DNA of 64,000 nucleotides from positions 20,421-84,420 of IMG/VR virus record IMGVR_UViG_3300042868_013265; one strand, 5' to 3'. This stretch comes from a virus. The position numbers and the translations under genes were made by a program. Of this stretch, positions 24,888 through 47,557 are shown one piece after another (within the stretch, counting starts at the first letter, position 1; the number at the start of each line of letters is the position of its first letter). The notes under the pieces are model-generated. The model was given only the letters and a program-made list of their open reading frames with translations, did not search any database and was not told the origin of the DNA.

Positions 24888-25651
24888 CCAATATTTTAAC
24901 CACGAGTTTAGGAAGAAACATTAATACCGTAGAGGGTAATGGTCTTGCTATATTCGTTGACGACACGGATTTCGTGTTGAAGTTAAAAGACGTTGATGGC
25001 AATATACAACCTGTAACAGACTTCACAGGTAGCGGTGGAACGAGCGGTGGTGGAATACAATCCATCAATGCCTTGACAGCACCCGCGCAATTTTTGGTGA
25101 CAGGTACTTCAGGAAATGATTTTGCGGTACAGTCTTCAGGCAATACACATACCTTTAATTTGCCAAATGCGAGTACAAGCGCACGAGGTGTAGTTAGCAC
25201 GGGCCCACAAACAATCAAAGGGATAAAAACATTTACAGACAATGCATTTTTTCAAGGCGATGTTGATATTTTAGGTACGCTTACAGCGGAAGCAAAATCG
25301 TTCTTGATTCCACACCCCGACCCTGACAAACAAGGGTGGGATTTACAACACGGAAACTTGGAGGGTGGCGAACACGGTATTTATCACCGTGGCCGTCTTC
25401 AGGGGACAAATATGATATATCTACCTTCATATTGGAAGTTTTTGGTGAGTCAGCATACCATTACGGTACACTTGACAAGTGCCAAAGGCAACTTCAATTA
25501 TTTCGTAGAAGATGTGACTTTAGAAACTATTAGAATTGCAAAATCCGAGGGTGATTGGTACTCTTATGATTGCTATTTTATAATTCACGCTGAAAGACGA
25601 GATATTGGCAAATTGAAGGTGGAAATTACACCTCAAGAAAAGCAATATTGA
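24884..25651 (+). CDS. Fibre/receptor-binding protein
   Basis: The 255-residue protein has an N-terminal attachment module shared with the preceding gene (about 1-45), a short GGTSGGG hinge, and the phage-fibre motif TSARGVVSTGPQTIKGIKTF (about 98-117). The C-terminal domain includes FLIPHPDPDKQGWDLQHGNL and GEHGIYHRGRL, a module I associate with phage structural proteins. It is probably a trimeric spike recognising the host surface. Its stop overlaps the start of the first glycosyltransferase gene by one base, placing the sugar enzymes in the fibre operon. Confidence 0.75.
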   Translation: MTNILTTSLGRNINTVEGNGLAIFVDDTDFVLKLKDVDGNIQPVTDFTGSGGTSGGGIQSINALTAPAQFLVTGTSGNDFAVQSSGNTHTFNLPNASTSARGVVSTGPQTIKGIKTFTDNAFFQGDVDILGTLTAEAKSFLIPHPDPDKQGWDLQHGNLEGGEHGIYHRGRLQGTNMIYLPSYWKFLVSQHTITVHLTSAKGNFNYFVEDVTLETIRIAKSEGDWYSYDCYFIIHAERRDIGKLKVEITPQEKQY

Positions 25652-27627: not shown

Positions 27628-27637
27628 AATTAAATAT

Positions 27638-29401
27638 ATGACAAACATAGCAACCCCTTTATTTAGAGTAGAGTATGAAAAAGACGGCAACAAAATTTTT
27701 GTTTACTATCAAAATGAAAAACCAATTGATGTAAGTATATCCGTAGCAGACATCGATTCAAAACACGCGATTTATGCATTTGACTCTCATTTTAGAGATT
27801 ATTCAGGCTGTTGGAATGTTCCTGTACCTGTAGCCGCTTTGAATCATTACAATCGGACAGGATACTTTAGGGGATATGAGGTTTCGATTTACACTTCGGA
27901 TAGACTTACTCTGTTGGAACAACATACGATTTGGTATAATGAAAACGCTCCAAAATTTGATAGAGTATTATTCCCTACTGACCCTTGGAATTTGACTTGG
28001 ATTAATTACACGGAAATGTTTGTTGAAGACTTCTACAACCCGCTTCAAATGAACATCAATGGAGTTTGTTTGGATATTGGCGCAAATGATGGTCTATACA
28101 CAGAATATTTGCTTCGTAATGGAGCAGAACGGGTTTATGCAGTAGAATGTGACCCCCGTAGTATAAAGTTCCTTAACAAGCGTTTTAATGGCGATAAAAG
28201 GGTAGTTGTGGTTGACAAAGGATTATGGAATGCAAACCAAAATGGTGTAAAGTTGGCTTACAAAGAGGACACGAGCACAGTTTCATCTATCAAGACTGAA
28301 GTTCATCACTTTGATGAAAACAATTATTTTTACATTGATACTTGGGATTATGCGACTTTGAAGAGCAAAATGAATATCAGTAAAGTTGATTTTTTCAAGA
28401 TTGATATTGAAGGTGCTGAATATGAAGTTTTCGAATCAATGACCGATGATGACATTTGTGAAATTGAAGGTTTTATGGTCGAGATTCATTGGAATTCAAA
28501 TGGCCGTATTTATGGTATCACTGATAGACTTGAGAAATTAGGTTATTCAATTGAACTTCGCAGACATACGGTGGACAATGCCGTAGTAGAGAACCGTGAC
28601 GAATGGAAAGATTACGACCTATGCACATTCTACGCTTCAAAAAAAAAAGAGCCACGGAAGTTTAGTTTAAGCATCCATCATTTGCAAACGAGTCTTTTTA
28701 CTGATGTTGAAAGGCAAAGTCGTGACAAAATTGATTATTTAATTCATTTGTTGAAGAAAGATTCTCGTTTTAGTGAGGTCTATTGGAGTCGTCATATCAA
28801 TACTCCTTGGAAGGAATTACCAACTAAAGAGAATTGTAAAAGACCAAATGCGTTGTCGATGGAAAAATTTCCAAATGGCATAAATGAATATGGAGAAACT
28901 GCGCTGACACCCGCTCACTATGGCTGCTTTAGAGCATTTAATGATGCTATTCAGATGCATTTCAACAAGGACTATTCAGCGACGTTGATATTTGAGGGTG
29001 ACGCGGATATTCGAGATGTGTATTCGTTTATTGAATGCCTATACCTTGCCCTGTGTGAGGCAGACAAAAATGAAATAGATTTCATTTCATTTGGAGGAGC
29101 GTATCATTTGGAGACAGGCGAATTATTAGCACATCCCGTGGAGAGAATTGATTCCTTAAATTTTGGGTGGATTTCAAAACACGTTCCATTTGCACATTCG
29201 ATAATTATTCCTCAGAGATACATCAAACAGATGATGCACGCCTTTGCAACTGAGCCTTGGGATGTTGCTGATTTATTTTTTATGAATCATTTTAATATGC
29301 ATCCAAACAGGAGACAATTTGTAAGCGAAATTCAACTGAGTCATCAAATTGATGGATATTCATTAATCGATAAAAAAGTCAAAAATTACTTAATCAAATG
29401 A
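27638..29401 (+). CDS. Bifunctional FkbM methyltransferase - GT25-like glycosyltransferase
   Basis: The 587-residue protein begins with the same beta-rich domain as the preceding gene (HAIYAFDSHFRDYSGCW; FRGYEVSIY), then FkbM methyltransferase motifs CLDIGANDGLYTEYL (about 145) and DFFKIDIEGAEYEVFES (about 252). From about residue 345 a second enzyme begins: LTPAHYGCFRAFNDAI and TLIFEGDADI fit the LTxxxxGC and acidic (EDDA-like) metal/nucleotide site of GT25/LPS-type glycosyltransferases. It follows the previous gene by ten bases and overlaps the next by four. The most likely acceptors are sugars on the neighbouring fibre, though host or virion glycans are possible. Confidence 0.8.
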   Translation: MTNIATPLFRVEYEKDGNKIFVYYQNEKPIDVSISVADIDSKHAIYAFDSHFRDYSGCWNVPVPVAALNHYNRTGYFRGYEVSIYTSDRLTLLEQHTIWYNENAPKFDRVLFPTDPWNLTWINYTEMFVEDFYNPLQMNINGVCLDIGANDGLYTEYLLRNGAERVYAVECDPRSIKFLNKRFNGDKRVVVVDKGLWNANQNGVKLAYKEDTSTVSSIKTEVHHFDENNYFYIDTWDYATLKSKMNISKVDFFKIDIEGAEYEVFESMTDDDICEIEGFMVEIHWNSNGRIYGITDRLEKLGYSIELRRHTVDNAVVENRDEWKDYDLCTFYASKKKEPRKFSLSIHHLQTSLFTDVERQSRDKIDYLIHLLKKDSRFSEVYWSRHINTPWKELPTKENCKRPNALSMEKFPNGINEYGETALTPAHYGCFRAFNDAIQMHFNKDYSATLIFEGDADIRDVYSFIECLYLALCEADKNEIDFISFGGAYHLETGELLAHPVERIDSLNFGWISKHVPFAHSIIIPQRYIKQMMHAFATEPWDVADLFFMNHFNMHPNRRQFVSEIQLSHQIDGYSLIDKKVKNYLIK

Positions 29402-31548
29402 GAATAGCACATATTCAACCAAGCGTAATTTCAGTCCCCCCTAACGGATGGGGGGCAATTGAAAAAATCATTTGGGAATACAAAATGGTTTTGAATCAGT
29501 TAGGACACGTCTGCGAAGTAGTCAATTTGCAGGATTTGAAGGCTGAAGAATGGGATATCATCCATTGCCATATGTTTGACCAAGCATTATGGTTGGCTGA
29601 ACAAAAAGTTCCATATTTTTATTCGCACCACGACCATCATTCGATGGTTTGGGGTGAAGAAAGTGCTAATTATCAATTAAATCTAAAAGCAATGAGACTT
29701 GCTGAGATTGCCTTTGTTCACGCACAAAGTAGTATTGAGATGTTTAAAAATATCCCTTATTATTTGAGTCACGGTGTGAATACTGAATTCTTTGATTTTA
29801 TAAGGCCGAAAAATATTGATGAACCGAATATTATTATTGTCGGGAACAATGGTTTGGCGGGAACTGAGCAAGTCTTTGACCGAAAAGGTTTCAGGTATGC
29901 AATTGAGGCCGCACGTGAATTAAAATGGACAATTACTATGGTTGGTCCCAAAGCAACCCAAGAACAGTTTCTGAAGGAAAATCCCGATTTGCAGTATGAA
30001 AAACTAAGGTTGGTTTTTGATGCGGACGAGGAGCGGTTGAAGAAAGAATTACAGAATGCTCATTTAATGATTCACGCTACGTTTGTAGAGGCAGGTCATC
30101 CACCTTTAACACCTTTGGAAGCAATGTCTTGCGGGGTCCCTGTAATTGGTACACCAATGGGTATTGATGTGCCTCAAATAATATGTGAAAGAACTACCGA
30201 AAGCGTAGTAGAAGGAATTAAACAATTCGTATTTCAAAGAAATTCATTAATTGCAGAAGCACGCCTAATTGCTGAAAATTACGATTGGAAAATTATTGTT
30301 GAAAATAATTTATTGAAATGGTATTTTCAGGTCTTGGACCGAAACAATATGGCTAATACGGCCCGTAGAATTTACCATCAATCGACCATAAATAAAGTGC
30401 AAGACACTATGATGTTCAAGTACTTAGATGGTGCGAGAGTGGATTTGGTTGGTAGTAGCGATAAAACGTATAAGGCCGAACTTTCGGTTCGGGATGAGCA
30501 CTTAGGAATTATTTTCAGTGCAGATTTAAAATGCGGTATGTATGCTCAGGGTGCAATGAAATATCATAGATATTGGGAATGGAAAATTACGGATGAAAAA
30601 GGGAACGAATTTTTACATCCATATGATGCGACGGACAAACGTGTTTATGTGGCGATTGAAAGTTCAAGTTTAGGAGACTCTTTGGCTTGGGTCCCAATAG
30701 TTGATGAGTTTAGAAAGGTGCACAATTGCAAAATGATTATCAGCACTTTTTGGAACGATATGTTCAGGGATGCATACCCTGAAATGGAATTTATCAGGGC
30801 GGGAACACCCGTTAATAATATTTATGCAATGTACAGGATTGGTTGGTATTACGAGAACGACGGTTTAGAGGTACATTATGGACATCACTCACGCGATTTC
30901 CGCAAATTTTCTTTGCAAGGTACAGCCTGTGATATTTTAGGTCTTCCTGACATCGAAATAAAACCAAAATTAAAGGAAATTGAAGGGCAAAAAAATGATA
31001 AAAAATATGTAGTTATTGCACCTCACGCTTCGAGCCATTGTAAATATTGGCACAACGAAGAAGGATGGTCTAAAGTTGTCGAATTTTTAAACGAGTTAGG
31101 TTATGAGGTTTGGAACATCTCAAAGGAGTCTGCATCAAGCGATTGGGAGAATTCTAAGTTGCCAAAAAATGCATTAAAAAACGTAATTGATAAGACGGGA
31201 GACATACATATAGACGAAAGGATTTCTCAAATAAAATCCTCATCTTTGTTTATTGGATTAGGAAGCGGACTTTCTTGGTTGGCTTGGGCCTGTGATACAC
31301 CTGTTGTTCTGATAAGTGGTTTCTCACGGCCTATAAGCGAATTTAGTGATTGCACCCGCGTTTTTAATCAAAATGTGTGTAATGGATGCTTTAACGATTA
31401 CAGGCTTGACGCGGGTAATTGGAATTGGTGCCCTAAATATGAAAATACTGACAAAATGTATGAATGCAGTAAGTCAATTACACCTGAACAGGTAATTGAC
31501 GCAATTAGGAAAACACTAAACAAGCACCAAACAGCACCCGATGGCTAA
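29398..31548 (+). CDS. GT4-like glycosyltransferase fused to Aah/TibC-type autotransporter heptosyltransferase
   Basis: The 716-residue protein has an N-terminal GT4-like unit (about 1-320; RIAHIQPSVISVPP opening, VEAGHPPLTPLEAMSCGVPV). The C-terminal half (about 335-705) follows the Aah/TibC family order: a small barrel (MMFKYLDGARVDLVGS; YHRYWEWKI), IESSSLGDSLAWVP, TFWNDMF, IAPHASSHCKYWHNEEGW, LFIGLGSGLSWLAWACDTPV and ISGFSRP. Four cysteines, C661-x2-C664, C678 and C690, match the iron-finger of TibC-type enzymes. Known members heptosylate serines in autotransporter adhesin repeats. Here the gene overlaps the giant Ser/Thr-rich fibre gene by 8 bases, making that fibre the obvious acceptor. 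The sugar donor is unknown. Confidence 0.85.
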   Translation: MRIAHIQPSVISVPPNGWGAIEKIIWEYKMVLNQLGHVCEVVNLQDLKAEEWDIIHCHMFDQALWLAEQKVPYFYSHHDHHSMVWGEESANYQLNLKAMRLAEIAFVHAQSSIEMFKNIPYYLSHGVNTEFFDFIRPKNIDEPNIIIVGNNGLAGTEQVFDRKGFRYAIEAARELKWTITMVGPKATQEQFLKENPDLQYEKLRLVFDADEERLKKELQNAHLMIHATFVEAGHPPLTPLEAMSCGVPVIGTPMGIDVPQIICERTTESVVEGIKQFVFQRNSLIAEARLIAENYDWKIIVENNLLKWYFQVLDRNNMANTARRIYHQSTINKVQDTMMFKYLDGARVDLVGSSDKTYKAELSVRDEHLGIIFSADLKCGMYAQGAMKYHRYWEWKITDEKGNEFLHPYDATDKRVYVAIESSSLGDSLAWVPIVDEFRKVHNCKMIISTFWNDMFRDAYPEMEFIRAGTPVNNIYAMYRIGWYYENDGLEVHYGHHSRDFRKFSLQGTACDILGLPDIEIKPKLKEIEGQKNDKKYVVIAPHASSHCKYWHNEEGWSKVVEFLNELGYEVWNISKESASSDWENSKLPKNALKNVIDKTGDIHIDERISQIKSSSLFIGLGSGLSWLAWACDTPVVLISGFSRPISEFSDCTRVFNQNVCNGCFNDYRLDAGNWNWCPKYENTDKMYECSKSITPEQVIDAIRKTLNKHQTAPDG

Positions 31549-34500
31549 AAACATTTTAATAACACCCTATAGGAATTCCACGAATCCTTTAGAGTTGCCG
31601 AAAATAGACTTTATTAATGGCTCGACTGCCATTACACTTCAAGTTGAAGAAACCTCACAGTCGTTAACTTTTGTTGGTTCTGCAGGCACACTGTTGCAAA
31701 TCAATAATGATTTAACAGGCACGACAATATCAACCAAAAACATTGCAATTACAGGTGTAATTAAAAACACAGGTATAACCTCGAATTCGGGGCTCAATGA
31801 TTTTGTGGTAGTTGATATTGCTACGGGTCAGTTTTATTACCGTAGTGCACCAACGGGCACTTCAGGTAGTTCAGGTCAAAGTGGAACAAGCGGAACCTCG
31901 GGAGCAAACGGCTCTTCGGGCACCTCGGGAGCAAGCGGTTCAAGTGGTACTTCAGGAGCAAATGGCTCATCAGGTACTTCGGGAGCAAACGGCTCAAGTG
32001 GTACTTCAGGAGTGAACGGTACATCGGGAACATCGGCATCAAGTGGTACATCAGGAGCAAATGGCTCTTCGGGTACTTCAGGTGATTCAGGTAGTTCAGG
32101 TACGTCAGGAGCAAATGGCTCATCAGGCACTTCGGGAGCAAACGGTTCATCGGGAACATCGGGCGCAAACGGCTCAAGTGGAACATCGGGTAACTCGGGT
32201 TCATCGGGAACATCGGGTGCAAATGGTTCATCAGGTACGTCAGGTGAAAGTGGTTCTTCAGGTACTTCAGGGTCGAATGGTTCATCAGGAACTTCGGGTT
32301 CAAGCGGAACTTCAGGGAACTCAGGCTCTTCAGGTACGTCGGGTGACTCAGGTTCTTCGGGTACTTCAGGTGCTAACGGCACTTCAGGAACTTCGGGTGA
32401 AAGTGGCTCAAGTGGAACATCGGGTAATTCAGGTTCGTCAGGAACATCGGGTAACTCAGGTTCATCAGGCACATCAGGAGCAAACGGTTCTTCGGGAACA
32501 TCAGGTGCAAGTGGTGCAGAAATTACAGATGGTTGGGATTGGGGAACTCCTGTTAACAGTACGAAAATGTATTCAAGTAATGGAAACTTGGATTCATCAA
32601 CTGTATTATTAAATATTTCGGAAACCTCTTTATCATTGACCGATTATGCAAGTCAATTTGCATTGATGGGAGTTGGGTCTCGAATCACTACAAGAGGGGG
32701 CCTTTTTGCGGCAAATGTTACAAATTGGGAAGTTACCTCAGTTACAGATGCGGGAACGTATTACGAATTCGGAGTTGTATATCTTTCAGGTACACAATGG
32801 ACTCCAACTTCAGGAGATGATATTTTATGTGATTTTGCAATTGCAGGTAAATCGGGTTCAAGTGGAACAGCGGGTACCTCAGGGCAAAATGGCTCTTCGG
32901 GTACTTCAGGAGCGAATGGTACATCAGGTACTGCAGGAACAACGGGTTCATCAGGTACTTCAGGTGCAGGTGTAGCAAACTATTATGCTCAATATAGCAG
33001 TAGCCAATCACAACCATTATTGGCTGTAAATACACCTCAGGTAGTTACTTATGACACGGTTGAAATTGAAAATGGTATTTCGTTTTCAGGTGGACAAATC
33101 ACTGTTCAATACTCGGGTATTTACGAATTTACTTTTTCTCCTCAAGTAGAAAAAACGCAAGGTGGTACAGCAGTAAACGTCGACTTTTTTATAAGGAAAA
33201 ATGGCTTTGATGTTATTCGAACGGATTCAATACTCGGATTAGTATCTAATAGTTCGACACAACTTCCGTTTGTTGCATTGACGTTGGAATTATTGCAAAA
33301 TGATTTTATTGAATTATTATTTGCATCAACCACCACCTTTGTACAGTTAACTGCGGTTGGCGCAAAGACAACACCATTTATTGCGCCCGCAGCACCATCA
33401 ATTATTGTTTCATTGAAAAATATTGGTGTAGCCGCAGTTGCATATACATCAACATCAGGTACTTCGGGTCAAAGTGGTACTGCGGGAGTTTCGGGGTCTT
33501 CAGGAACATCAGGTTCTACAGGTTCAAGCGGAACGTCAGGAGAAAGCGGCACAAGTGGTACATCAGGTTCTACAGGTTCAAGTGGTACATCGGGAGAAAA
33601 TGGTTCAAGTGGAACTTCGGGTTCTACAGGTTCAAGCGGTACATCGGGAGAATCAGGTTCAAGCGGAACTTCAGGAGAAAACGGTTCAAGCGGAACTTCG
33701 GGTTCTGCAGGTTCAAGTGGAACATCAGGTTCTACAGGTTCAAGCGGAACTTCAGGAGAAAGCGGCTCAAGCGGTACATCAGGGTCTTCAGGAACATCGG
33801 CATCAAGTGGCACATCAGGTTCTACAGGTTCGAGCGGTACATCGGGTTCTGCAGGTTCAAGTGGAACTTCAGGTTCTACAGGTTCATCAGGAACTTCAGG
33901 AGAAAGCGGCTCAAGTGGAACTTCAGGTTCTACAGGTTCATCAGGAACTTCAGGAGAAAGCGGCTCAAGCGGTACATCAGGTGAAAGTGGTTCAAGCGGT
34001 ACATCAGGTGATAGCGGTTCAAGCGGAACTTCAGGAGAAAGCGGTTCAAGCGGAACTTCAGGAGAAAGCGGTTCAAGTGGAACTTCAGGAGAATCAGGTT
34101 CAAGTGGAACTTCAGGTACATCGGCATCGAGTGGAACGTCAGGTTCTACAGGTAGTTCGGGCACTTCGGGAGAAAATGGTTCAAGTGGAACGTCAGGTTC
34201 TACAGGGACTTCGGGTTCTTCAGGAAGTTCAGGTACTTCAGGAGAAAATGGCTCATCAGGTACAAGCGGTGAATCAGGAACCTCGGGAACTTCAGGTTCG
34301 AGCGGTAGTACGGGTACATCAGGTTCTGCGGGCACAAGTGGCAGCACAGGAACCTCAGGTTCTACAGGTTCATCAGGAACAAGCGGTTCTTCAGGTACTT
34401 CGGGCGAAAATGGCTCAAGCGGTACTTCAGGTTCAGCGGGCTCAAGCGGCACTTCGGGCGAAAATGGCTCAAGTGGTACGTCAGGTTCATCAGGGACTTC

Positions 34501-37500: not shown

Positions 37501-40500
37501 GTCTTCAGGAACAAGCGGAAGCGCAGGTTCAAGCGGTTCTACAGGTTCTTCGGGCTCAAGTGGTACTGCAGGTTCTTCAGGAACATCGGCATCAAGTGGT
37601 AGCGCAGGAACTTCAGGTTCATCAGGAACTTCGGGTGCAAACGGTTCAAGCGGAACGAGCGGAAGCGCAGGTTCATCAGGAACCTCGGGCTCTTCAGGTT
37701 CTGCAGGAACTTCAGGTATAAATGGTTCTTCAGGAACATCGGGGTCTTCAGGGACATCGGGTTCTTCAGGTTCAAGTGGTTCAACAGGCTCAAGTGGAAC
37801 AAGCGGTAGCGCGGGTTCAAGCGGTTCTACAGGTTCATCGGGCTCAAGCGGAACTGCGGGTTCATCAGGAACTTCAGGCGCAAATGGTTCTTCAGGAACG
37901 AGCGGAAGCGCAGGTTCATCAGGAACATCAGGTTCAAGCGGAACATCAGGAACTGCAGGTTCAAGCGGAACGTCGGGTACAAGAGGTTCAAGTGGAACGA
38001 GTGGCAGCACAGGTTCAAGCGGTTCTACGGGTTCTTCAGGCACCTCAGGTTCTTCAGGAACTTCAGGAGCAAACGGTTCATCAGGGACTTCAGGTTCAAG
38101 CGGAACAAGTGGTTCTGCGGGCTCTTCAGGCACTTCGGGTTCAAGCGGAACAAGCGGTAGCACAGGGTCAAGTGGGTCAACAGGTTCAAGTGGCACAAGC
38201 GGTAGCGCAGGTTCTTCAGGAACATCAGGTTCTGCAGGTTCCTCAGGTACTTCAGGCGCAAATGGTTCAAGCGGAACAAGCGGAAGCGCAGGTTCTTCGG
38301 GTTCTACGGGCTCATCAGGTACCTCAGGTTCAAGCGGAACAAGCGGTAGCGCAGGCTCAAGCGGTTCTACAGGTTCAAGTGGAACATCAGGCTCGGCAGG
38401 TTCAAGTGGCTCAACAGGTTCATCAGGTTCTTCAGGAACTGCAGGCTCTTCAGGAACATCAGGAGCAAACGGCTCAAGTGGCACATCGGGCTCTTCAGGA
38501 AGCGCGGGCTCTTCGGGTTCTACAGGAAGTTCAGGAACCTCAGGTTCAAGTGGAACGAGCGGTAGCACAGGTTCTTCGGGTTCTACGGGCTCTTCAGGCA
38601 CATCAGGCTCAAGCGGAACATCCGCGTCAAGTGGTTCTTCGGGTACATCGGGTTCCGCAGGTTCTTCAGGAACTTCGGGAGCAAATGGCTCTTCAGGAAC
38701 TTCGGGCTCTGCAGGAAGTGCGGGCTCAAGCGGTTCAACAGGCTCTTCAGGCACATCAGGCTCAAGCGGAACATCAGGAAGTACGGGTTCAAGTGGCTCT
38801 ACGGGTTCGTCAGGAACTTCGGGTTCTTCAGCAACATCAGGCTCTGCGGGTTCTTCGGGAACAGCAGGCTCGTCAGGTTCTTCGGGAACTTCGGGCGCAA
38901 ACGGCTCAAGTGGTACTTCAGGTTCTGCAGGTTCTACAGGCTCAAGTGGTACTTCGGGCTCCTCAGGAACTTCGGGCACAGCGGGTTCAAGTGGTACTTC
39001 GGGCACAGCGGGTTCAAGTGGTACTTCAGGCACAAGGGGTTCGAGCGGTACTTCAGGAAGTACAGGCTCAAGCGGTTCTACGGGTTCATCAGGAACGAGT
39101 GGTTCTTCAGGCACCTCGGGTGCAAACGGTTCAAGCGGAACTTCGGGTTCTTCAGGTAGTGCGGGGTCAAGTGGCTCTACAGGCTCATCAGGAACTTCAG
39201 GTTCAAGCGGTACAAGTGGTAGTACAGGTTCTTCAGGCTCTACGGGTTCTTCAGGGACATCAGGTTCATCAGCAACTTCGGGCTCTGCAGGTTCGTCAGG
39301 GACTTCAGGAAGTGCGGGTTCATCAGGTACTTCGGGGGCAAATGGGTCGAGCGGAACAAGCGGTAGCGCAGGTTCTTCGGGTTCTACAGGTTCATCAGGA
39401 ACCTCAGGTTCAAGCGGAACAAGCGGAAGTGCAGGCTCAAGCGGTTCAACGGGTTCAAGCGGAACATCAGGCTCTGCAGGTTCAAGTGGAACGAGCGGTT
39501 CTGCAGGTTCTTCAGGAAGTGCGGGCTCATCAGGTACATCAGGTGCAAATGGTTCAAGCGGAACAAGCGGAAGCGCGGGTTCTTCAGGAAGCACAGGTTC
39601 ATCAGGAACATCGGGTTCTTCAGGAACAAGCGGTAGCACGGGTTCTTCGGGGTCTACAGGCTCAAGCGGAACAAGCGGTAGCGCAGGTTCTTCAGGAACA
39701 TCGGCATCAAGTGGAAGTTCAGGAAGCGCAGGTACATCAGGAAGTTCAGGAACATCGGGGGCCAACGGCTCAAGCGGTACTTCAGGTTCTGCAGGTAGTG
39801 CGGGCTCAAGTGGTTCTACAGGGTCAAGTGGTACTTCGGGTTCATCAGGAACAAGTGGTAGCACGGGTTCAAGTGGTTCTACAGGCTCATCAGGAACTTC
39901 AGGTTCGAGTGGAACAAGTGGTAGTGCAGGTTCAAGCGGAACTTCAGGTTCTTCGGGAACTTCGGGCACAGCGGGGTCAAGCGGTACTTCAGGAACAAGA
40001 GGTTCGTCAGGAACTTCAGGTTCGACAGGTTCATCAGGTTCTACGGGCTCATCAGGTTCTACAGGAACTTCAGGCTCAAGCGGTTCGTCAGGAACTTCAG
40101 GAGCAAACGGTTCAAGTGGTACAAGCGGTAGTGCGGGCTCATCAGGTTCTACAGGTTCTTCAGGCACATCAGGCTCAAGCGGTACATCAGGAAGCGCGGG
40201 TTCAAGCGGCTCTACGGGGTCATCAGGAACATCAGGTTCTTCAGCAACTTCGGGTTCTGCAGGTTCATCAGGAACTGCAGGCTCTTCAGGTTCTTCGGGA
40301 ACTTCAGGTGCAAATGGCTCAAGCGGTTCAAGCGGAACAAGTGGTAGTTCAGGTTCATCAGGCTCTACAGGTTCTTCAGGAACATCAGGTTCAAGCGGAA
40401 CAAGCGGAAGCGCGGGTTCTTCGGGTTCAACGGGTTCAAGCGGTACAAGCGGCTCTTCAGGAACATCGGCATCAAGCGGAAGTTCAGGAAGCGCAGGCAC

Positions 40501-43500
40501 ATCAGGTAGTTCGGGTACTTCAGGAGCAAATGGTTCAAGTGGCTCAAGTGGAACAAGTGGTTCTTCAGGAAGCGCAGGTTCAACAGGGTCATCAGGTTCA
40601 TCAGGAACTTCGGGTTCGAGCGGTACAAGTGGTTCAACAGGTTCAAGCGGCTCTACGGGCTCAAGTGGGTCTACGGGTACATCGGGTTCAAGCGGTTCAA
40701 GCGGAACTTCGGGAGTAAATGGTTCAAGTGGTTCATCAGGAACAAGTGGTAGTGCAGGTTCAAGTGGAACAAGTGGTTCTGCGGGTTCATCAGGAACATC
40801 AGGCTCTGCAGGCTCTTCGGGAACTTCAGGCACAGCGGGTTCAAGTGGAACATCAGGAACACGTGGTTCTTCAGGTTCATCAGGCTCTACAGGTTCTTCA
40901 GGTACTTCGGGTTCATCAGGAACAAGTGGTAGCACGGGTTCATCAGGCTCTACAGGTTCAAGCGGAACGTCGGGCTCATCAGGAACATCAGCATCAAGCG
41001 GAAGTTCAGGAAGCGCGGGTACATCGGGCTCAAGCGGAACTTCAGGAGCAAATGGCTCGTCAGGTACTTCGGGCTCTTCAGGAAGTGCGGGCTCAAGCGG
41101 TTCAACAGGTTCTTCGGGCACATCAGGCTCAAGCGGTACATCAGGAAGCGCGGGTTCAAGTGGTTCTACAGGTTCTTCGGGAACAAGCGGTAGCGCAGGT
41201 TCTTCAGGCACATCGGGTTCTGCAGGCTCGTCAGGCACGTCAGGTGCAAATGGCTCAAGTGGTACTTCGGGGTCTGCGGGTAGTGCGGGTTCATCGGGCT
41301 CTACGGGTTCATCAGGGACATCAGGTTCAAGCGGTACATCAGGAAGCGCAGGTTCTTCAGGCTCTACAGGTTCTTCAGGAACGAGTGGTAGCGCGGGTTC
41401 TTCAGGTACATCAGGTTCTGCGGGCTCTTCAGGCACATCAGGTGCAAACGGTTCAAGTGGTACAAGCGGAAGCGCAGGTTCAAGCGGTTCTACGGGTTCG
41501 AGCGGTACGAGCGGGTCAAGCGGAACAAGTGGTAGTACAGGTTCAAGCGGTTCAACAGGCTCAAGTGGAACAAGCGGAAGCACAGGCTCTTCAGGCACAT
41601 CGGGCTCGGCAGGTTCTTCAGGAACATCAGGCTCGGCAGGTTCTTCAGGAACATCAGGCACAGCAGGTTCGAGTGGTACTTCAGGAACACGTGGTTCTTC
41701 AGGTTCATCAGGTTCTACAGGAACGAGCGGTTCAAGCGGAACAAGCGGTAGCACAGGTTCAAGCGGTTCAACGGGTTCGAGCGGAACAAGTGGAAGTACA
41801 GGTTCTTCAGGCTCTACAGGCTCAAGTGGAACATCAGGTTCAAGCGGAACAAGTGGAAGCACAGGTTCAAGCGGCTCAACGGGTTCAAGTGGTACTTCGG
41901 GTTCATCAGGAACATCAGCATCAAGCGGAAGTTCAGGAAGTGCGGGTACCTCAGGTAGTTCAGGCACTTCAGGGGCAAATGGGTCGAGTGGCTCAAGCGG
42001 AACAGCAGGTTCTTCAGGAAGCGCAGGTTCTTCGGGTTCTACAGGTTCTTCAGGAACAAGCGGTTCATCAGGAACAAGTGGTAGCGCAGGTTCTTCAGGC
42101 TCTACAGGCTCAAGCGGAACAAGCGGTAGCGCAGGTTCATCAGGCACATCGGGTTCTGCAGGCTCTTCAGGCACATCAGGTGCAAATGGTTCAAGTGGCA
42201 CAAGCGGTTCAAGCGGAAGCGCAGGTTCTTCGGGTTCTACAGGAAGTTCAGGAACCTCAGGTTCAAGTGGCACAAGTGGTAGCACAGGTTCAAGCGGGTC
42301 AACAGGTTCAAGCGGAACGAGCGGTAGCGCAGGTTCTTCAGGAACATCAGGCTCGGCAGGTTCTTCAGGAACATCAGGCACAGCGGGCTCTTCAGGCACG
42401 TCAGGCACAGCAGGTTCAAGTGGTACTTCGGGAACACGTGGTTCTTCAGGTTCATCAGGTTCTACAGGAACAAGCGGTTCAAGCGGAACAAGTGGAAGCA
42501 CAGGCTCAAGCGGCTCTACAGGCTCAAGTGGTACTTCGGGTTCGTCAGGAACATCGGCATCAAGTGGAAGTTCAGGAAGTGCGGGTACCTCAGGTAGTTC
42601 AGGCACTTCAGGGGCAAATGGCTCGAGTGGCTCAAGCGGAACATCAGGGTCTTCAGGAAGCGCAGGTTCTTCAGGTTCTACAGGTTCTTCGGGAACAAGC
42701 GGTTCATCAGGAACAAGTGGTAGCACGGGCTCAAGCGGTTCTACAGGCTCAAGTGGGTCTACGGGAACATCGGGCTCAAGCGGAACTTCAGGGGTAAATG
42801 GGTCAAGTGGTTCTTCAGGAACTTCGGGTTCTGCGGGCTCATCAGGAACGTCAGGTTCTGCGGGCTCTTCGGGAACGAGCGGAAGCGCAGGTTCAAGCGG
42901 AAGCACAGGTTCATCAGGTTCTACAGGCTCATCAGGAACGTCGGGTTCTGCGGGCTCATCAGGAACGTCAGGTTCTGCGGGCTCTTCGGGAACTTCAGGC
43001 ACAGCAGGTTCAAGTGGAACATCAGGAACTCGAGGTTCTTCAGGTTCATCAGGTTCTACAGGCACTTCAGGCTCAAGCGGAACAAGTGGAAGCACAGGTT
43101 CAAGCGGGTCAACGGGCTCAAGCGGAACAAGTGGAAGTACAGGTTCAAGCGGTTCGACAGGTTCAAGTGGAACAAGTGGAAGTACAGGTTCATCGGGTTC
43201 TACGGGTTCAAGCGGTACGAGTGGCTCATCAGGAACATCGGCATCAAGCGGAAGTTCAGGAAGTGCAGGTACGTCAGGTAGTTCAGGAACATCAGGAGCA
43301 AACGGCTCATCAGGCTCATCAGGAACTGCAGGTTCGTCAGGTAGCGCAGGTTCTACAGGTTCTTCAGGTTCCTCAGGAACTTCGGGTTCATCAGGAACAA
43401 GCGGAAGCGCGGGTTCAACAGGTTCATCGGGCTCAAGTGGGTCTACGGGAACATCGGGCTCAAGTGGCTCAAGCGGTACATCAGGTGCAAATGGCTCGAG

Positions 43501-46500
43501 CGGCTCAAGCGGAACAAGCGGTAGTGCGGGCTCATCAGGAACTTCGGGTTCTGCAGGCTCATCAGGAACGTCAGGTTCTGCAGGCTCTTCGGGAACTTCA
43601 GGTACAGCGGGGTCAAGTGGAACGTCAGGAACGCGCGGTTCGTCAGGTTCATCAGGTTCAACGGGTTCTTCAGGAACTTCAGGCTCAAGCGGAACAAGTG
43701 GAAGTACAGGTTCATCAGGTTCAACGGGTTCAAGCGGAACCTCAGGCTCATCAGGAACATCGGCATCAAGCGGAAGTTCAGGAAGCGCGGGAACATCGGG
43801 CTCAAGCGGAACTTCAGGGGCTAATGGCTCGAGTGGAACAAGCGGTTCGAGCGGAAGCGCGGGTTCTTCAGGTAGCACAGGTTCATCGGGAACATCAGGC
43901 TCATCGGGTACGAGCGGAAGCACGGGTTCTTCAGGTTCTACGGGTTCAAGCGGAACAGCGGGTTCAAGCGGTACTTCGGGTTCTTCAGGCTCAAGTGGCT
44001 CTGCAGGTACATCGGGCGCAAATGGTTCTTCAGGAACTTCAGGTTCAAGTGGAAGCGCAGGCTCATCAGGGTCTACGGGCTCAAGCGGAACGAGTGGCTC
44101 TGCGGGTTCATCAGGAACAGCAGGAACTTCGGGGTCTTCGGGTACTTCAGGTACAGCAGGTTCAAGTGGTACTTCGGGTACACGGGGTTCATCAGGTTCT
44201 TCAGGGTCTACAGGAACTTCGGGTTCAAGCGGAACTTCAGGGGCAAATGGCTCAAGTGGAACGAGTGGCTCAAGTGGAAGCGCGGGCTCATCAGGCTCTA
44301 CGGGCTCAAGCGGAACAAGTGGTAGCACGGGTTCTTCGGGCTCTACAGGGTCATCAGGAACAAGTGGTTCTTCAGGTACATCAGGCTCAAGCGGTAGCGC
44401 GGGTTCAAGCGGTAGCGCAGGAACATCAGGAGCAAATGGCTCAAGTGGAACGAGTGGTTCTGCAGGAAGCGCAGGTTCTTCGGGTAGCACAGGTTCATCA
44501 GGAACTGCAGGTTCAAGTGGTACGGCAGGTTCTTCGGGTAGTGCAGGCTCAAGCGGGTCTACGGGTTCAAGCGGAACTTCGGGTTCAAGTGGCTCATCAG
44601 GAACATCAGGAGCGAATGGCTCAAGCGGTTCAAGCGGAACAAGTGGTTCTGCGGGCTCTTCAGGCACATCAGGAACTGCAGGCTCAAGCGGAACATCAGG
44701 AACTCGAGGTTCTTCAGGTTCATCAGGTTCTACAGGCTCAAGTGGGTCTACGGGTACGTCAGGCTCGAGCGGCTCAAGCGGAAGCGCGGGTACCTCAGGG
44801 GCAAACGGCTCAAGTGGTACAAGTGGGTCTTCAGGAAGTGCAGGTTCTACAGGGTCTTCGGGTTCATCAGGAACATCGGGTTCAAGCGGAACAAGCGGAA
44901 GTGCAGGTTCAAGCGGCTCTACAGGCTCAAGTGGCTCTACGGGCACTTCAGGCTCAAGTGGCTCGAGCGGAAGTGCAGGCACATCGGGTGCAAATGGCTC
45001 AAGTGGTACAAGTGGTTCTGCAGGAAGTGCGGGTTCAAGTGGGTCTACGGGTTCGTCAGGAACTGCAGGTTCCTCAGGAACGAGCGGTAGTGCGGGCTCA
45101 AGCGGCTCTACAGGCTCAAGTGGGTCTACAGGTACGTCAGGTTCCTCAGGCTCTTCAGGCACATCAGGAACTGCAGGTTCAAGCGGAACATCAGGAACTC
45201 GAGGTTCTTCAGGTTCTTCAGGTTCTACAGGCTCAAGTGGCTCTACGGGTACTTCAGGTTCAAGCGGAAGCGCGGGTACATCGGGTGCAAACGGTTCTTC
45301 AGGAACATCAGGCTCAAGCGGAAGTACAGGTTCAAGTGGCTCTACAGGGTCAAGTGGAACATCAGGTTCTTCAGGAAGTGCGGGTTCTACAGGTTCTTCA
45401 GGGTCTTCAGGAACAGCGGGTTCATCAGGAACATCGGCATCAAGCGGAAGTTCAGGAAGCGCAGGTACTTCAGGGGCCAACGGTTCTTCGGGTACTTCGG
45501 GCTCATCAGGAAGCGCGGGTTCTACGGGTTCATCAGGCTCAAGCGGAACAGCGGGCTCATCAGGAAGCGCAGGTTCAAGTGGTTCTACGGGTTCAAGCGG
45601 CACCGCAGGTTCAAGCGGAACTTCAGGTACACGCGGTTCATCAGGCTCAAGCGGTTCAGCGGGTACTTCAGGTGCGAATGGTTCAAGTGGTTCAAGCGGA
45701 ACGAGTGGCTCTTCAGGAAGTGCAGGTTCAACAGGTTCGAGCGGTTCTACGGGTACATCAGGCTCAAGCGGCTCAAGTGGAACGAGCGGCTCTTCAGGAA
45801 GTGCAGGTTCAACAGGTTCGAGCGGTTCTACGGGTACATCAGGCTCAAGTGGCTCAAGTGGAAACACGGGTGCTGCGGGTTCATCAGGAACTTCGGGTTC
45901 TTCAGGAAGCGCAGGGTCAAGTGGTTCTACGGGTTCAAGCGGAACGAGCGGCTCATCAGGTAGCGCAGGCTCTACGGGTTCAAGCGGGTCTACGGGTACT
46001 TCAGGCTCAAGCGGCTCAAGCGGAAATACGGGTGCGGCAGGTTCTTCAGGAACGAGCGGCTCATCAGGTAGCGCAGGCTCTACGGGTTCTTCGGGTTCAT
46101 CAGGAACTGCGGGTTCTTCAGGTACGTCAGGTACAAGAGGTTCATCAGGCTCAAGTGGTTCTACGGGTTCAAGCGGCTCTACAGGTACGTCAGGCTCAAG
46201 CGGTTCAAGTGGAAACACGGGTGCGGCAGGTTCTTCAGGAACGAGCGGCTCATCAGGAAGCGCGGGTTCTACGGGTTCTTCAGGTTCTACGGGAACTTCG
46301 GGTTCGAGCGGTTCAAGTGGAAACACGGGTGCGGCAGGTTCTTCAGGAACATCGGGCTCAAGCGGTTCGAGCGGTTCAAGTGGAAACACAGGTGCGGCAG
46401 GTTCTTCAGGAACATCGGGCTCAAGCGGGTCAAGCGGAAACACGGGTGCAGCGGGTTCTTCAGGTACTTCGGGCTCAAGCGGTTCAAGTGGAAACACAGG

Positions 46501-47557
46501 TGCGGCAGGTTCTTCAGGAACTTCGGGTTCGAGTGGAAACACAGGTGCAGCAGGTTCATCAGGAACATCGGGCTCAAGTGGAAACACGGGTGCTGCAGGT
46601 TCTTCAGGTACTTCGGGCTCAAGTGGAAACACAGGTGCAGCAGGTTCTTCAGGCACAAGTGGTGTTAGTGGTGCAGCGGGTTCTTCAGGCACAAGCGGTG
46701 TCAATGGTGCGGCAGGTTCTTCAGGAACTTCGGGCGCGAATGGTGCGGCAGGGTCATCGGGTACGTCAGGAACAAGAGGTTCTTCAGGAACATCAGGTGC
46801 AAACGGTGCGAACGGTTCATCGGGTACAAGCGGTGTCAATGGTGCGGCAGGTTCTTCAGGAACTTCGGGCGCGAATGGTGCGGCAGGGTCATCGGGTACG
46901 TCAGGAACAAGAGGTTCTTCAGGAACATCAGGTGCAAACGGTGCGAACGGTTCATCGGGTACAAGCGGTGCAAACGGTGCAGCGGGTTCTTCAGGAACGT
47001 CAGGCTCAAGTGGTAATACAGGTGCTGCAGGTTCTTCAGGTACGAGCGGTACGAGCGTAGCCGTGAGCGGTACAACAAACAGAATCGTTAAGTTTACGGC
47101 ATCTACGACCATAGGTAACGCAAACGCGTCCGACGATGGAACGACATTCGAAGTCTTGAATACAGTTGGATTTAAGGCGGCCAAGTCGTTAGCAGTAGGT
47201 GCTTTGTCACCGTCAGCAACCACAGGTCGAATTGATGCTTCAAACGACATCGTAGCGTTCTCTACATCAGACAAACGCTTCAAAGAAAACGTGAAGCGAA
47301 TTGAAAACGCCCTCGAGAAAATCAAGACAATCGGTGGATACTCATTCGATTGGCGCGAGGAAGGCTTCGAGGCTCACGGATTCAAGGGAAGTGATGTCGG
47401 AGTAATCGCGCAAGAAATCGAGTCAGTGTTGCCCGAAATCGTGAAGGTAAAAGCAAACGGATTCAAGGGTGTACGTTATGAAAAAATCATCGCCTTGGTA
47501 ATTGAAGCAATCAAGGAGTTGGATGATAAAGTGGAAAAACTAAAAAACAATCAATAA
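31541..47557 (+). CDS. Giant collagen-like fibre with C1q-like island and S74 autocleaving chaperone
   Basis: The 5338-residue protein has an N-terminal virion-attachment region (1-105), a first Gly-X-Y stalk (about 106-325) and a beta domain (about 326-436). A short stalk and a C1q-like jelly-roll (about 485-625; VQYSGIYEFTFSPQV, LLQNDFIELLFAS) come next, then the main stalk (about 642-5172). The C-terminal tip ends in an intramolecular chaperone of the S74 family: TSDKRFKENVKRI, GGYSFDWREEG and DVGVIAQEIESVLPEIV. Ser5243 and Lys5248 have the S-x4-K spacing of the known dyad, so cleavage just before Ser5243 would release about 96 residues after trimerisation. The stalk has no proline. Its start lies inside the heptosyltransferase gene. 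It is probably the host-contact fibre or a glycosylated coat. Confidence 0.9.
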   Translation: MAKNILITPYRNSTNPLELPKIDFINGSTAITLQVEETSQSLTFVGSAGTLLQINNDLTGTTISTKNIAITGVIKNTGITSNSGLNDFVVVDIATGQFYYRSAPTGTSGSSGQSGTSGTSGANGSSGTSGASGSSGTSGANGSSGTSGANGSSGTSGVNGTSGTSASSGTSGANGSSGTSGDSGSSGTSGANGSSGTSGANGSSGTSGANGSSGTSGNSGSSGTSGANGSSGTSGESGSSGTSGSNGSSGTSGSSGTSGNSGSSGTSGDSGSSGTSGANGTSGTSGESGSSGTSGNSGSSGTSGNSGSSGTSGANGSSGTSGASGAEITDGWDWGTPVNSTKMYSSNGNLDSSTVLLNISETSLSLTDYASQFALMGVGSRITTRGGLFAANVTNWEVTSVTDAGTYYEFGVVYLSGTQWTPTSGDDILCDFAIAGKSGSSGTAGTSGQNGSSGTSGANGTSGTAGTTGSSGTSGAGVANYYAQYSSSQSQPLLAVNTPQVVTYDTVEIENGISFSGGQITVQYSGIYEFTFSPQVEKTQGGTAVNVDFFIRKNGFDVIRTDSILGLVSNSSTQLPFVALTLELLQNDFIELLFASTTTFVQLTAVGAKTTPFIAPAAPSIIVSLKNIGVAAVAYTSTSGTSGQSGTAGVSGSSGTSGSTGSSGTSGESGTSGTSGSTGSSGTSGENGSSGTSGSTGSSGTSGESGSSGTSGENGSSGTSGSAGSSGTSGSTGSSGTSGESGSSGTSGSSGTSASSGTSGSTGSSGTSGSAGSSGTSGSTGSSGTSGESGSSGTSGSTGSSGTSGESGSSGTSGESGSSGTSGDSGSSGTSGESGSSGTSGESGSSGTSGESGSSGTSGTSASSGTSGSTGSSGTSGENGSSGTSGSTGTSGSSGSSGTSGENGSSGTSGESGTSGTSGSSGSTGTSGSAGTSGSTGTSGSTGSSGTSGSSGTSGENGSSGTSGSAGSSGTSGENGSSGTSGSSGTSGSTGTSGESGTSGTAGSSGSTGTSGSAGTSGSTGTSGSAGSSGTSGSSGTSGENGSSGTSGSTGSSGTSGSTGTSGSTGTSGSSGSTGSSGSSGESGTSGSTGTSGSTGSSGTSGESGTSGTTGSSGSTGSSGTSGSSGTSASSGTSGSSGINGSSGTSGSTGTSGSAGTSGANGSSGTSGSAGSSGTSGSTGSSGTSGSSGTSASSGSSGSSGSTGSSGTSGSSGTSGANGSSGTSGSAGSSGTSGSTGSSGTSGSSGTSASSGSSGSTGSSGTSGSAGSSGTSGANGSSGTSGSSATSGSAGSSGSAGTSGSSATSGSSGSSGTSGSSGTSGANGSSGTSGSSGTSGSTGSSGTSGANGSSGTSGSSGTSGSAGSSGSTGSSGTSGSSGTSGSAGSSGSTGSSGTSGSSGSSGTSGANGSSGTAGSSGTSGSSGTSGSAGSSGTSGANGSSGTAGSSGTSGSAGSSGSAGTSGANGSSGTSGSSGSSGSTGSSGTSGSSGSTGTSGSSGTSASSGTSGSSGSAGTSGANGSSGTSGSSGSSGSTGSSGTSGANGSSGTSGSAGSSGSTGSSGTSGSSGTSGSTGSSGSAGTSGSSATSGSSGSSGTSGSAGTSGANGSSGTSGSSGTSGSTGSSGSAGTSGANGSSGTSGSTGSSGTSGSAGSSGSTGSSGTSGSTGSSGSTGSSGTSGSSGTSGSAGSSGSAGTSGANGSSGTSGSSGTSGNAGSSGTSGSSGSSGSAGTSGSTGSSGTSGSAGSSGTSGSAGSSGSTGSSGTSGANGSSGTSGSSGTSGSTGSSGSSGSTGSSGTSGSSGTSGSTGSSGSTGSSGTSGSAGSSGTSGANGSSGTSGSSGTSGSTGSSGTAGSSGTSGTRGSSGTSGSTGSSGSTGSSGTSGSSGTSGSAGSSGSAGTSGANGSSGTSGSSGTSGSTGSSGSSGSTGTSGTAGSSGTSGSAGSSGSTGSSGSSGTAGSSGTSGANGSSGTSGSSGSSGSTGSSGTSGSSGTSGSAGSSGSTGSSGSSGTAGSSGTSASSGSAGTSGSSGTSGANGSSGTSGSAGSSGTSGSSGSAGTSGINGSSGTSGSSGTSGSSGSSGSTGSSGTSGSAGSSGSTGSSGSSGTAGSSGTSGANGSSGTSGSAGSSGTSGSSGTSGTAGSSGTSGTRGSSGTSGSTGSSGSTGSSGTSGSSGTSGANGSSGTSGSSGTSGSAGSSGTSGSSGTSGSTGSSGSTGSSGTSGSAGSSGTSGSAGSSGTSGANGSSGTSGSAGSSGSTGSSGTSGSSGTSGSAGSSGSTGSSGTSGSAGSSGSTGSSGSSGTAGSSGTSGANGSSGTSGSSGSAGSSGSTGSSGTSGSSGTSGSTGSSGSTGSSGTSGSSGTSASSGSSGTSGSAGSSGTSGANGSSGTSGSAGSAGSSGSTGSSGTSGSSGTSGSTGSSGSTGSSGTSGSSATSGSAGSSGTAGSSGSSGTSGANGSSGTSGSAGSTGSSGTSGSSGTSGTAGSSGTSGTAGSSGTSGTRGSSGTSGSTGSSGSTGSSGTSGSSGTSGANGSSGTSGSSGSAGSSGSTGSSGTSGSSGTSGSTGSSGSTGSSGTSGSSATSGSAGSSGTSGSAGSSGTSGANGSSGTSGSAGSSGSTGSSGTSGSSGTSGSAGSSGSTGSSGTSGSAGSSGTSGSAGSSGSAGSSGTSGANGSSGTSGSAGSSGSTGSSGTSGSSGTSGSTGSSGSTGSSGTSGSAGSSGTSASSGSSGSAGTSGSSGTSGANGSSGTSGSAGSAGSSGSTGSSGTSGSSGTSGSTGSSGSTGSSGTSGSSGTSGSAGSSGTSGSSGTSGTAGSSGTSGTRGSSGTSGSTGSSGSTGSSGSTGTSGSSGSSGTSGANGSSGTSGSAGSSGSTGSSGTSGSSGTSGSAGSSGSTGSSGTSGSSATSGSAGSSGTAGSSGSSGTSGANGSSGSSGTSGSSGSSGSTGSSGTSGSSGTSGSAGSSGSTGSSGTSGSSGTSASSGSSGSAGTSGSSGTSGANGSSGSSGTSGSSGSAGSTGSSGSSGTSGSSGTSGSTGSSGSTGSSGSTGTSGSSGSSGTSGVNGSSGSSGTSGSAGSSGTSGSAGSSGTSGSAGSSGTSGTAGSSGTSGTRGSSGSSGSTGSSGTSGSSGTSGSTGSSGSTGSSGTSGSSGTSASSGSSGSAGTSGSSGTSGANGSSGTSGSSGSAGSSGSTGSSGTSGSSGTSGSAGSSGSTGSSGTSGSAGSSGTSGSAGSSGTSGANGSSGTSGSAGSAGSSGSTGSSGTSGSSGTSGSAGSSGSTGSSGTSGSAGSSGTSGSAGSSGTSGANGSSGTSGSAGSSGSTGSSGTSGSSGTSGSTGSSGSTGSSGTSGSTGSSGTSGSAGSSGTSGSAGSSGTSGTAGSSGTSGTRGSSGSSGSTGTSGSSGTSGSTGSSGSTGSSGTSGSTGSSGSTGSSGTSGSSGTSGSTGSSGSTGSSGTSGSSGTSASSGSSGSAGTSGSSGTSGANGSSGSSGTAGSSGSAGSSGSTGSSGTSGSSGTSGSAGSSGSTGSSGTSGSAGSSGTSGSAGSSGTSGANGSSGTSGSSGSAGSSGSTGSSGTSGSSGTSGSTGSSGSTGSSGTSGSAGSSGTSGSAGSSGTSGTAGSSGTSGTAGSSGTSGTRGSSGSSGSTGTSGSSGTSGSTGSSGSTGSSGTSGSSGTSASSGSSGSAGTSGSSGTSGANGSSGSSGTSGSSGSAGSSGSTGSSGTSGSSGTSGSTGSSGSTGSSGSTGTSGSSGTSGVNGSSGSSGTSGSAGSSGTSGSAGSSGTSGSAGSSGSTGSSGSTGSSGTSGSAGSSGTSGSAGSSGTSGTAGSSGTSGTRGSSGSSGSTGTSGSSGTSGSTGSSGSTGSSGTSGSTGSSGSTGSSGTSGSTGSSGSTGSSGTSGSSGTSASSGSSGSAGTSGSSGTSGANGSSGSSGTAGSSGSAGSTGSSGSSGTSGSSGTSGSAGSTGSSGSSGSTGTSGSSGSSGTSGANGSSGSSGTSGSAGSSGTSGSAGSSGTSGSAGSSGTSGTAGSSGTSGTRGSSGSSGSTGSSGTSGSSGTSGSTGSSGSTGSSGTSGSSGTSASSGSSGSAGTSGSSGTSGANGSSGTSGSSGSAGSSGSTGSSGTSGSSGTSGSTGSSGSTGSSGTAGSSGTSGSSGSSGSAGTSGANGSSGTSGSSGSAGSSGSTGSSGTSGSAGSSGTAGTSGSSGTSGTAGSSGTSGTRGSSGSSGSTGTSGSSGTSGANGSSGTSGSSGSAGSSGSTGSSGTSGSTGSSGSTGSSGTSGSSGTSGSSGSAGSSGSAGTSGANGSSGTSGSAGSAGSSGSTGSSGTAGSSGTAGSSGSAGSSGSTGSSGTSGSSGSSGTSGANGSSGSSGTSGSAGSSGTSGTAGSSGTSGTRGSSGSSGSTGSSGSTGTSGSSGSSGSAGTSGANGSSGTSGSSGSAGSTGSSGSSGTSGSSGTSGSAGSSGSTGSSGSTGTSGSSGSSGSAGTSGANGSSGTSGSAGSAGSSGSTGSSGTAGSSGTSGSAGSSGSTGSSGSTGTSGSSGSSGTSGTAGSSGTSGTRGSSGSSGSTGSSGSTGTSGSSGSAGTSGANGSSGTSGSSGSTGSSGSTGSSGTSGSSGSAGSTGSSGSSGTAGSSGTSASSGSSGSAGTSGANGSSGTSGSSGSAGSTGSSGSSGTAGSSGSAGSSGSTGSSGTAGSSGTSGTRGSSGSSGSAGTSGANGSSGSSGTSGSSGSAGSTGSSGSTGTSGSSGSSGTSGSSGSAGSTGSSGSTGTSGSSGSSGNTGAAGSSGTSGSSGSAGSSGSTGSSGTSGSSGSAGSTGSSGSTGTSGSSGSSGNTGAAGSSGTSGSSGSAGSTGSSGSSGTAGSSGTSGTRGSSGSSGSTGSSGSTGTSGSSGSSGNTGAAGSSGTSGSSGSAGSTGSSGSTGTSGSSGSSGNTGAAGSSGTSGSSGSSGSSGNTGAAGSSGTSGSSGSSGNTGAAGSSGTSGSSGSSGNTGAAGSSGTSGSSGNTGAAGSSGTSGSSGNTGAAGSSGTSGSSGNTGAAGSSGTSGVSGAAGSSGTSGVNGAAGSSGTSGANGAAGSSGTSGTRGSSGTSGANGANGSSGTSGVNGAAGSSGTSGANGAAGSSGTSGTRGSSGTSGANGANGSSGTSGANGAAGSSGTSGSSGNTGAAGSSGTSGTSVAVSGTTNRIVKFTASTTIGNANASDDGTTFEVLNTVGFKAAKSLAVGALSPSATTGRIDASNDIVAFSTSDKRFKENVKRIENALEKIKTIGGYSFDWREEGFEAHGFKGSDVGVIAQEIESVLPEIVKVKANGFKGVRYEKIIALVIEAIKELDDKVEKLKNNQ
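31857..32515 (+). repeat. First collagen-like Gly-X-Y repeat array
   Basis: About 73 triplets encode GTS, GSS, GAN, GNS, GES and GDS with the heptad-like phrase GSSGTSG repeated. It is an in-frame coding repeat inside the giant fibre gene, interrupted once by GTSASSGTS. Codons for the same residues vary from copy to copy. Confidence 0.9.
33466..47055 (+). repeat. Main collagen-like Gly-X-Y repeat array (about 1500 triplets)
   Basis: A coding repeat of about 13.6 kb is built almost entirely from GSS, GTS, GST, GSA, GAN, GTA, GEN, GES, GTR, GNT and GAA triplets, with no proline. Acidic GES/GEN triplets occur only up to about 34.9 kb, GTR only from 37.1 kb, and GNT-GAA dominates from about 45.8 kb. 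Recurrent Gly-to-Ala interruptions read GTSASSG or GSSATSG. Long stop-free frames on the minus strand and in another plus frame here are by-products of the repeat and are not genes. Confidence 0.9.

Follow-up and report, generated by a model that had tools for sequence, protein, structure and literature searches.

A candidate virus-encoded O-glycosylation operon adjoining a giant serine- and threonine-rich collagen-like fibre gene

Gene organisation of the locus

The DNA analysed here (the window, 64,000 nucleotides) corresponds to bases 20,421-84,420 of the 84,420-bp virus record IMGVR_UViG_3300042868_013265. Within it we examined a run of plus-strand genes in which three consecutive sugar-enzyme genes lead into a gene of 16,017 bp for a collagen-like fibre. 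A sequence-only reading had described the three as bifunctional, combining glycosyltransferase family 4 (GT4) with FkbM, FkbM with glycosyltransferase family 25 (GT25) and GT4 with a TibC-type domain, and as ending in an 8-base overlap with the fibre gene; this description was borne out by the open reading frames (ORFs), by domain searches and, for GT25, by structure prediction. The features of the run are as follows.

24003-24887, plus strand: small collagen-like, Ser/Thr-rich Gly-X-Y protein of 294 aa (PF01391 Collagen, E 2.7e-17; phage tail fibre families)
24884-25651, plus strand: structural-type protein of unnamed phage families, overlapping both neighbours (phrog_28536, 3e-27; phrog_17490, 9e-24)
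25648-27627 (ATG at 25651), plus strand: gene 1, GT4 + beta-rich domain + FkbM (PF00534, PF13692, PF05050 and TIGR01444 above cut-off)
27638-29401, plus strand: gene 2, beta-rich domain + FkbM + GT25-fold domain (PF05050, TIGR01444; structure model)
28640-29398, plus strand: GT25-fold domain of gene 2 (alignment of 41 relatives; structure and Foldseek)
29398-31548, plus strand: gene 3, GT4 + TibC/Aah-type O-heptosyltransferase domain (TIGR04414, 302 bits; 4rap, E 4.5e-54)
30394-31512, plus strand: TibC-type domain of gene 3, with conserved catalytic Asp, Lys and four-cysteine iron finger
31541-47557, plus strand: giant collagen-like fibre of 5,338 aa with a Peptidase_S74 C-terminus
47557-48234, plus strand: gene after the fibre, 225 aa, no family, overlapping the fibre stop by one base

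Genes 1 and 2 are separated by a gap of 10 bp, genes 2 and 3 overlap by 4 bases (ATGA), and the end of gene 3 shares 8 bases with the start of the fibre gene. The three enzymes and the fibre are thus arranged as originally claimed, but the unit is longer: the two upstream genes overlap in series, and the 225-aa gene continues the run 3′ of the fibre.

The TibC-type domain of gene 3

The N-terminal part of gene 3 (approximately aa 1-325) is a GT4 domain (PF13692, 1e-10). The remainder matched the TIGR04414 model hepto_Aah_TibC with 302.5 bits against a cut-off of 200, the domain (aa 333-705) spanning positions 7-373 of the 374 in the profile, and residues 337-705 aligned with the TibC crystal structure (4rap/4rb4) with E=4.5e-54. 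TibC-type enzymes glycosylate adhesins, and the known acceptors of the BAHT family, to which TibC and Aah belong, are autotransporters (PMC4358343). TibC needs its iron-finger cysteines both to bind iron and to be active, and its crystal with bound donor is that of a D110A mutant (PMC4358343). TibC residues Asp110, Lys230 and Cys339/342/358/370 were kept in 90 of 90 non-redundant sequences, the window protein included. Because the neighbour of gene 3 is a collagen-like S74 fibre and not an autotransporter adhesin, we class the predicted enzyme as TibC-like by domain only, not as part of an autotransporter system. A mere abundance of TIGR04414 among bacteria was discarded as a possibility, since of 143 gammaproteobacterial genomes only the one on which the set was centred passed the cut-off.

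The fibre

The fibre comprises a ~105-aa N-terminal region, ~4,700 aa of Gly-X-Y runs and a C-terminal Peptidase_S74 chaperone (E 1e-16), and this union of a Gly-X-Y tract with a phage fibre end domain identifies it as a collagen-like phage fibre. Its 5,338 residues include 2,118 Ser and 755 Thr (2,873 together), 1,620 Gly and 15 Pro. Counting runs of at least 4, there are 1,575 Gly-X-Y triplets, with Ser or Thr at X in 1,434/1,575 and at Y in 1,281/1,575; proline, the mark of ordinary collagen, was not listed at either position. A tract of this length is no chance finding. A proline-free Ser/Thr Gly-X-Y sequence is not expected to make a stable triple helix unaided.

The GT4, FkbM and GT25 domains of genes 1 and 2

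Gene 1 consists of a GT4 part (approximately aa 1-325; PF00534, E 5e-8, above cut-off), a beta-rich domain (aa 331-455) and an FkbM domain (aa 465-624; PF05050 6e-13, TIGR01444 9e-23), whereas gene 2 has a beta-rich domain at its start (aa 1-135), followed by FkbM (aa 143-304; 1e-13) and a GT25-fold domain (approximately aa 335-587). Both FkbM domains exceed the PF05050 and TIGR01444 cut-offs, and a SAM-binding motif is present, the motifs noted being DIGANDG and KIDIEGAE. Homology of the beta-rich domain to the N-terminal barrel of TibC was also considered and found to be unsupported (hhalign probability 12%).

The C-terminal domain of gene 2 (~250 aa) has no Pfam match of its own, including none to PF01755, and only 2 of its 41 relatives match PF01755 (best E 0.036). 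A whole-protein model based on three sequences could not be used (pLDDT 54), and the domain alone was modelled instead with AlphaFold2 from the 41 aligned relatives, giving a pLDDT of 91.9. In a Foldseek search the first PDB match of this model was human collagen galactosyltransferase COLGALT1, with mimivirus R655 soon after, and it also matched many viral proteins named GT25; an acidic motif (E119/D121) was invariant in the alignment. On these matches the label "GT25-like" given to this region is right despite the missing Pfam hit, and the domain is, as judged from the model, a GT25 fold, the weakest of the domain calls. The leading rank of COLGALT1 should not be over-read because few GT25 structures exist. 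A profile of the domain found no relatives, at this sensitivity, in a genome set covering 84,980 species of bacteria and archaea.

Recurrence of the module in other phages and viruses

The sequence-only reading had proposed a search for the same gene order beside other Gly-X-Y fibres, and a pairing of such enzymes with Gly-X-Y proteins was found in relatives from IMG/VR, in other phages and in some bacteria. Among the IMG/VR relatives, all three enzyme genes are conserved together with the fibre at protein identities as low as 55-69%. The genome of the 735-kb phage LR756501 places genes for GT4+GT25, for GT4+TibC and for a Ser/Thr Gly-X-Y protein next to one another, and in Microcystis phage Mel-JY01 a Gly-X-Y frame is found close to an FkbM..TibC gene. 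TibC is encoded in at least 573 stretches of IMG/VR; among 50,697 phage records it was present only in LR756501, Mel-JY01, LR756503 and LR756504. In a TibC tree viral and bacterial sequences were intermixed, with E. coli TibC and the sequences from loci L350 and L339 falling outside the rest and LR756504 next (these branches are long and their positions unsure).

In the Mel-JY01 record (PP395634) two minus-strand coding sequences are deposited within bases 1-2298 (1-651 and 739-2298); they look like antisense readings of a plus-strand Ser/Thr Gly-X-Y frame at 14-2176.

Coupling of TibC with Ser/Thr Gly-X-Y repeats

We compared virus records picked solely by a GTSG-type DNA pattern, which selects for Ser/Thr collagen repeats, with control records picked by an arbitrary 15-mer; locus counts from scans refer here to the matches listed. 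TibC was encoded in 20/50 GTSG-picked records and in 0/36 random ones (Fisher 3e-6; the control set is small), and among the records of at least 20 kb in the same tables in 19/37 versus 0/18. Conversely, Gly-X-Y repeats were present in 24 of the 27 large records with TibC as against 5 of 18 random ones (Fisher 6e-5), and in 43 of the 54 non-redundant TibC loci whose flanks were long enough, where they lay upstream or downstream on either strand. All 79 of the loci picked by the GT25 domain alone contained a TibC ORF (flank of up to 10 kb each side; some are near-duplicates). The composition of the repeats was also distinctive, with Ser/Thr reaching at least 30% in 34/36, 42/42 and 11/11 loci near TibC and in 1/7 random loci; repeats near TibC contained ~1% proline, and those of random loci were mostly of other composition.

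In bacterial genomes with this TibC type, a Ser/Thr Gly-X-Y frame (on the putative coding strand for the short ones) was found near TibC at 11/11 loci. One of these (L340) has a phage-type set of GT4-GT25, GT4 and TibC. At two others (L341 and L348) the pair lies among ordinary chromosomal genes, which rules out for these loci the idea that all bacterial pairs are prophages. These chromosomal loci, L341 in Methylomicrobium sp. RS1 (11199-11909, minus strand) and L348 in an Acidiferrobacterales metagenome-assembled genome (7706-8940), have a TibC-type enzyme of 380-420 aa beside short Ser/Thr Gly-X-Y frames, with no evident phage genes among those checked.

The linkage between TibC and Gly-X-Y repeats is strong but not absolute. 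Seventeen records with the module or TibC lack a nearby tract; 8 of the 17 have dense Ser/Thr Gly-X-Y sequence elsewhere, some of it tens of kb off, the record of locus L290 has a tract at its end, and most of the others are fragments. The sequence-only reading had held that homologous operons in relatives without a Ser/Thr-rich fibre nearby would speak against it; such cases exist in a few records, LR756504 among them, most other tract-less records being fragments.

A proposed glycosylation pathway for the fibre and its alternatives

Taken together, the domain identities, the intact catalytic and metal-binding residues, the gene order and the recurrent coupling with Ser/Thr Gly-X-Y proteins make it likely, on sequence grounds, that the TibC/GT4/GT25/FkbM operon O-glycosylates the virus's own Ser/Thr collagen-like fibre. 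The proposal of a dedicated O-glycosylation system for the neighbouring fibre thereby gains strong support, short of proof, from the conserved TibC residues and from the co-occurrence in many environmental phages that are not related to each other, and in some bacteria. With such recurrence it is probable that viruses produce a proline-free collagen of their own and coat it with sugars.

From the arrangement we infer an acceptor, a donor and an order of steps, with roles for glycan methylation and stabilisation. The TibC-type domain would attach the first sugar to Ser/Thr side chains of the Gly-X-Y repeats, a heptosylation-like first step being plausible, with ADP-heptose probably drawn from a Gram-negative host. 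The GT4 and GT25 domains would then extend the chain and the FkbM domains would O-methylate it. Since the repeats lack proline, the glycans probably do the stabilising work of (hydroxy)proline, yielding a stable, soluble and extended triple helix, and they may in addition protect the fibre or modulate adsorption. In Riftia cuticle collagen, glycosylated Thr stands in for hydroxyproline as a stabiliser of the triple helix, as summarised from Mann et al. 1996 (cited in PMC6953826); this is an animal protein and the parallel is one of analogy, not homology.

Several observations weigh against the proposed pathway. The acceptors known for TibC are autotransporters with a beta-helical fold and not collagen, and no gene for ADP-heptose synthesis came to notice in the virus, although no systematic search for one was made. 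We could find no Gly-X-Y tract in the 636-kb phage record LR756504 despite its TibC domain; the same is true of the 87-kb record of locus L339, whose TibC groups with that of E. coli outside the main clade. In several large genomes (e.g. that of locus L327) module and Gly-X-Y gene are tens of kb apart. Moreover, the loci behind the association are related by descent and the random set is small (36 records; 18 large).

Enzymes of the GT4 and FkbM families often take part in making surface polysaccharides, and those of the operon might instead modify glycans on the host surface (capsule or lipopolysaccharide O-chain), blocking superinfection or aiding release, with adjacency to the fibre reflecting a shared host-interaction cassette. 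Glycosyltransferases beside pelagimyophage tail fibres have been read as host O-antigen modifiers (PMC7029224), and this virus has further glycosyltransferase and FkbM genes away from the fibre, of which the glycosyltransferases may alter O-antigen. The TibC family modifies protein, however, and the acceptor-binding and iron-finger residues are intact here; the coupling is specific to Ser/Thr collagen repeats, the repeats beside TibC having a composition unlike that of random ones, and it extends to bacterial chromosomes without evident phage genes. For the operon itself we consider a surface-glycan role unlikely. Coincidence between TibC genes and collagen-like fibres, both being frequent in one kind of aquatic phage with no enzyme-substrate relation, would fit the mutual relatedness of many loci, the few TibC records without Gly-X-Y, and the stand-alone TibC genes that lie 4-8 kb from a fibre with other genes between. 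It has rather little probability in our judgement, as the fibre may lie on either side of TibC and on either strand where the linkage recurs, and as the genomes concerned range from an 84-kb virus through a 735-kb phage to chromosomes of bacteria from several phyla, against no TibC in the 36 random records. That the module glycosylates another virion protein or a host autotransporter, leaving the giant fibre unmodified, would agree with the known BAHT acceptors (PMC4358343) and with the several other structural genes in the same run, yet no autotransporter is encoded here and it is the directly overlapping gene that carries 2,873 Ser/Thr; we find this very improbable.

If glycosylation of the fibre is accepted, a wider and more tentative reading is that there may be a widespread, undescribed class of proline-free collagen in aquatic phages and some bacteria, in which dedicated TibC-clade glycans replace (hydroxy)proline and which phages have expanded into a multi-enzyme GT4/GT25/FkbM factory.

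Other features of the virus

A second sugar-enzyme cluster lies at the other end of the record (139-5805, minus strand, within record bases 1-20000), and comprises two FkbM genes, genes resembling glycosyltransferase family 2 (GT2) and, at 4882-5805, a TibC-like gene that stands alone and is very divergent. The same part of the record encodes a free-standing GT4-like gene (12193-13419) and a further collagen-like protein with GSQ repeats (16658-18088). In the window, an apparently bifunctional methyltransferase + GT2-like gene (51772-52989, minus strand) lies beside a RecT recombinase (50764-51549), and 13670-23087 encodes numerous small single-span membrane proteins along with a HerA-like ATPase whose match stays below the Pfam cut-off. 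No relative was found in the 50,697 phage records for the putative capsid gene (14830-15531) or for the packaging ATPase (13670-14491). The virus possibly represents an undescribed, perhaps tailless, lineage.

Relation to known systems and significance

Gene 3 resembles the BAHT enzymes (TibC, Aah; TIGR04414) in the whole catalytic domain, the N-terminal barrel region, Asp110, Lys230 and the four-cysteine iron finger, and in lying directly 5′ of the presumed acceptor gene. It differs in its fusion to GT4, in its collagen-like Gly-X-Y partner, in the GT25 and FkbM domains alongside and in being encoded by a virus. In Bacillus BclA and Clostridioides difficile BclA3/SgtA, Thr-rich Gly-X-Y tracts are likewise O-glycosylated by enzymes encoded nearby, but the glycosyltransferase families are other ones, the repeats contain proline and the setting is the spore surface. 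For mycobacteriophage glycosylation we know of no TibC-type enzyme. Phage-encoded glycosyltransferases do modify mycobacteriophage virion proteins, as summarised from Freeman et al. 2023 (cited in PMC12619734); in that summary the glycans are at the C-termini of capsid and tail-tube subunits, and no collagen fibre is mentioned. Mimivirus L230 and the cellular COLGALT1/LH3 share with the present system a collagen-like acceptor and, for COLGALT1, the GT25 fold, and mimivirus is an instance of virus-encoded collagen modification, its collagen being glycosylated by a virus-encoded enzyme according to a summary of Luther 2011 (cited in PMC12220804). Those enzymes act on hydroxylysine, whereas the presumed starter here is TibC-type; the fibre repeats are nearly without lysine and a hydroxylase domain was not found here.

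The sequence-only reading knew of no virus for which a system of this kind had been described. Partial precedents are the virions of mycobacteriophages and the collagen of mimivirus, and both virus-encoded virion glycosylation and TibC glycosylation of adhesins are already known. A full-text search of the open-access literature, which mostly did not cover subscription papers, found nothing that describes a pairing of TibC-type enzymes with collagen-like fibres, and within that search the pairing with a Ser/Thr collagen fibre is new.

Enzyme and presumed substrate together form a compact system testable in laboratory E. coli. If the proposed pathway is true, TibC-type enzymes accept collagen-like as well as beta-helical substrates, and proline-free collagen can be built via glycosylation. 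Hundreds of environmental phages would then carry their own protein O-glycosylation pathway, and many phage glycosyltransferases read as O-antigen modifiers would need re-reading.
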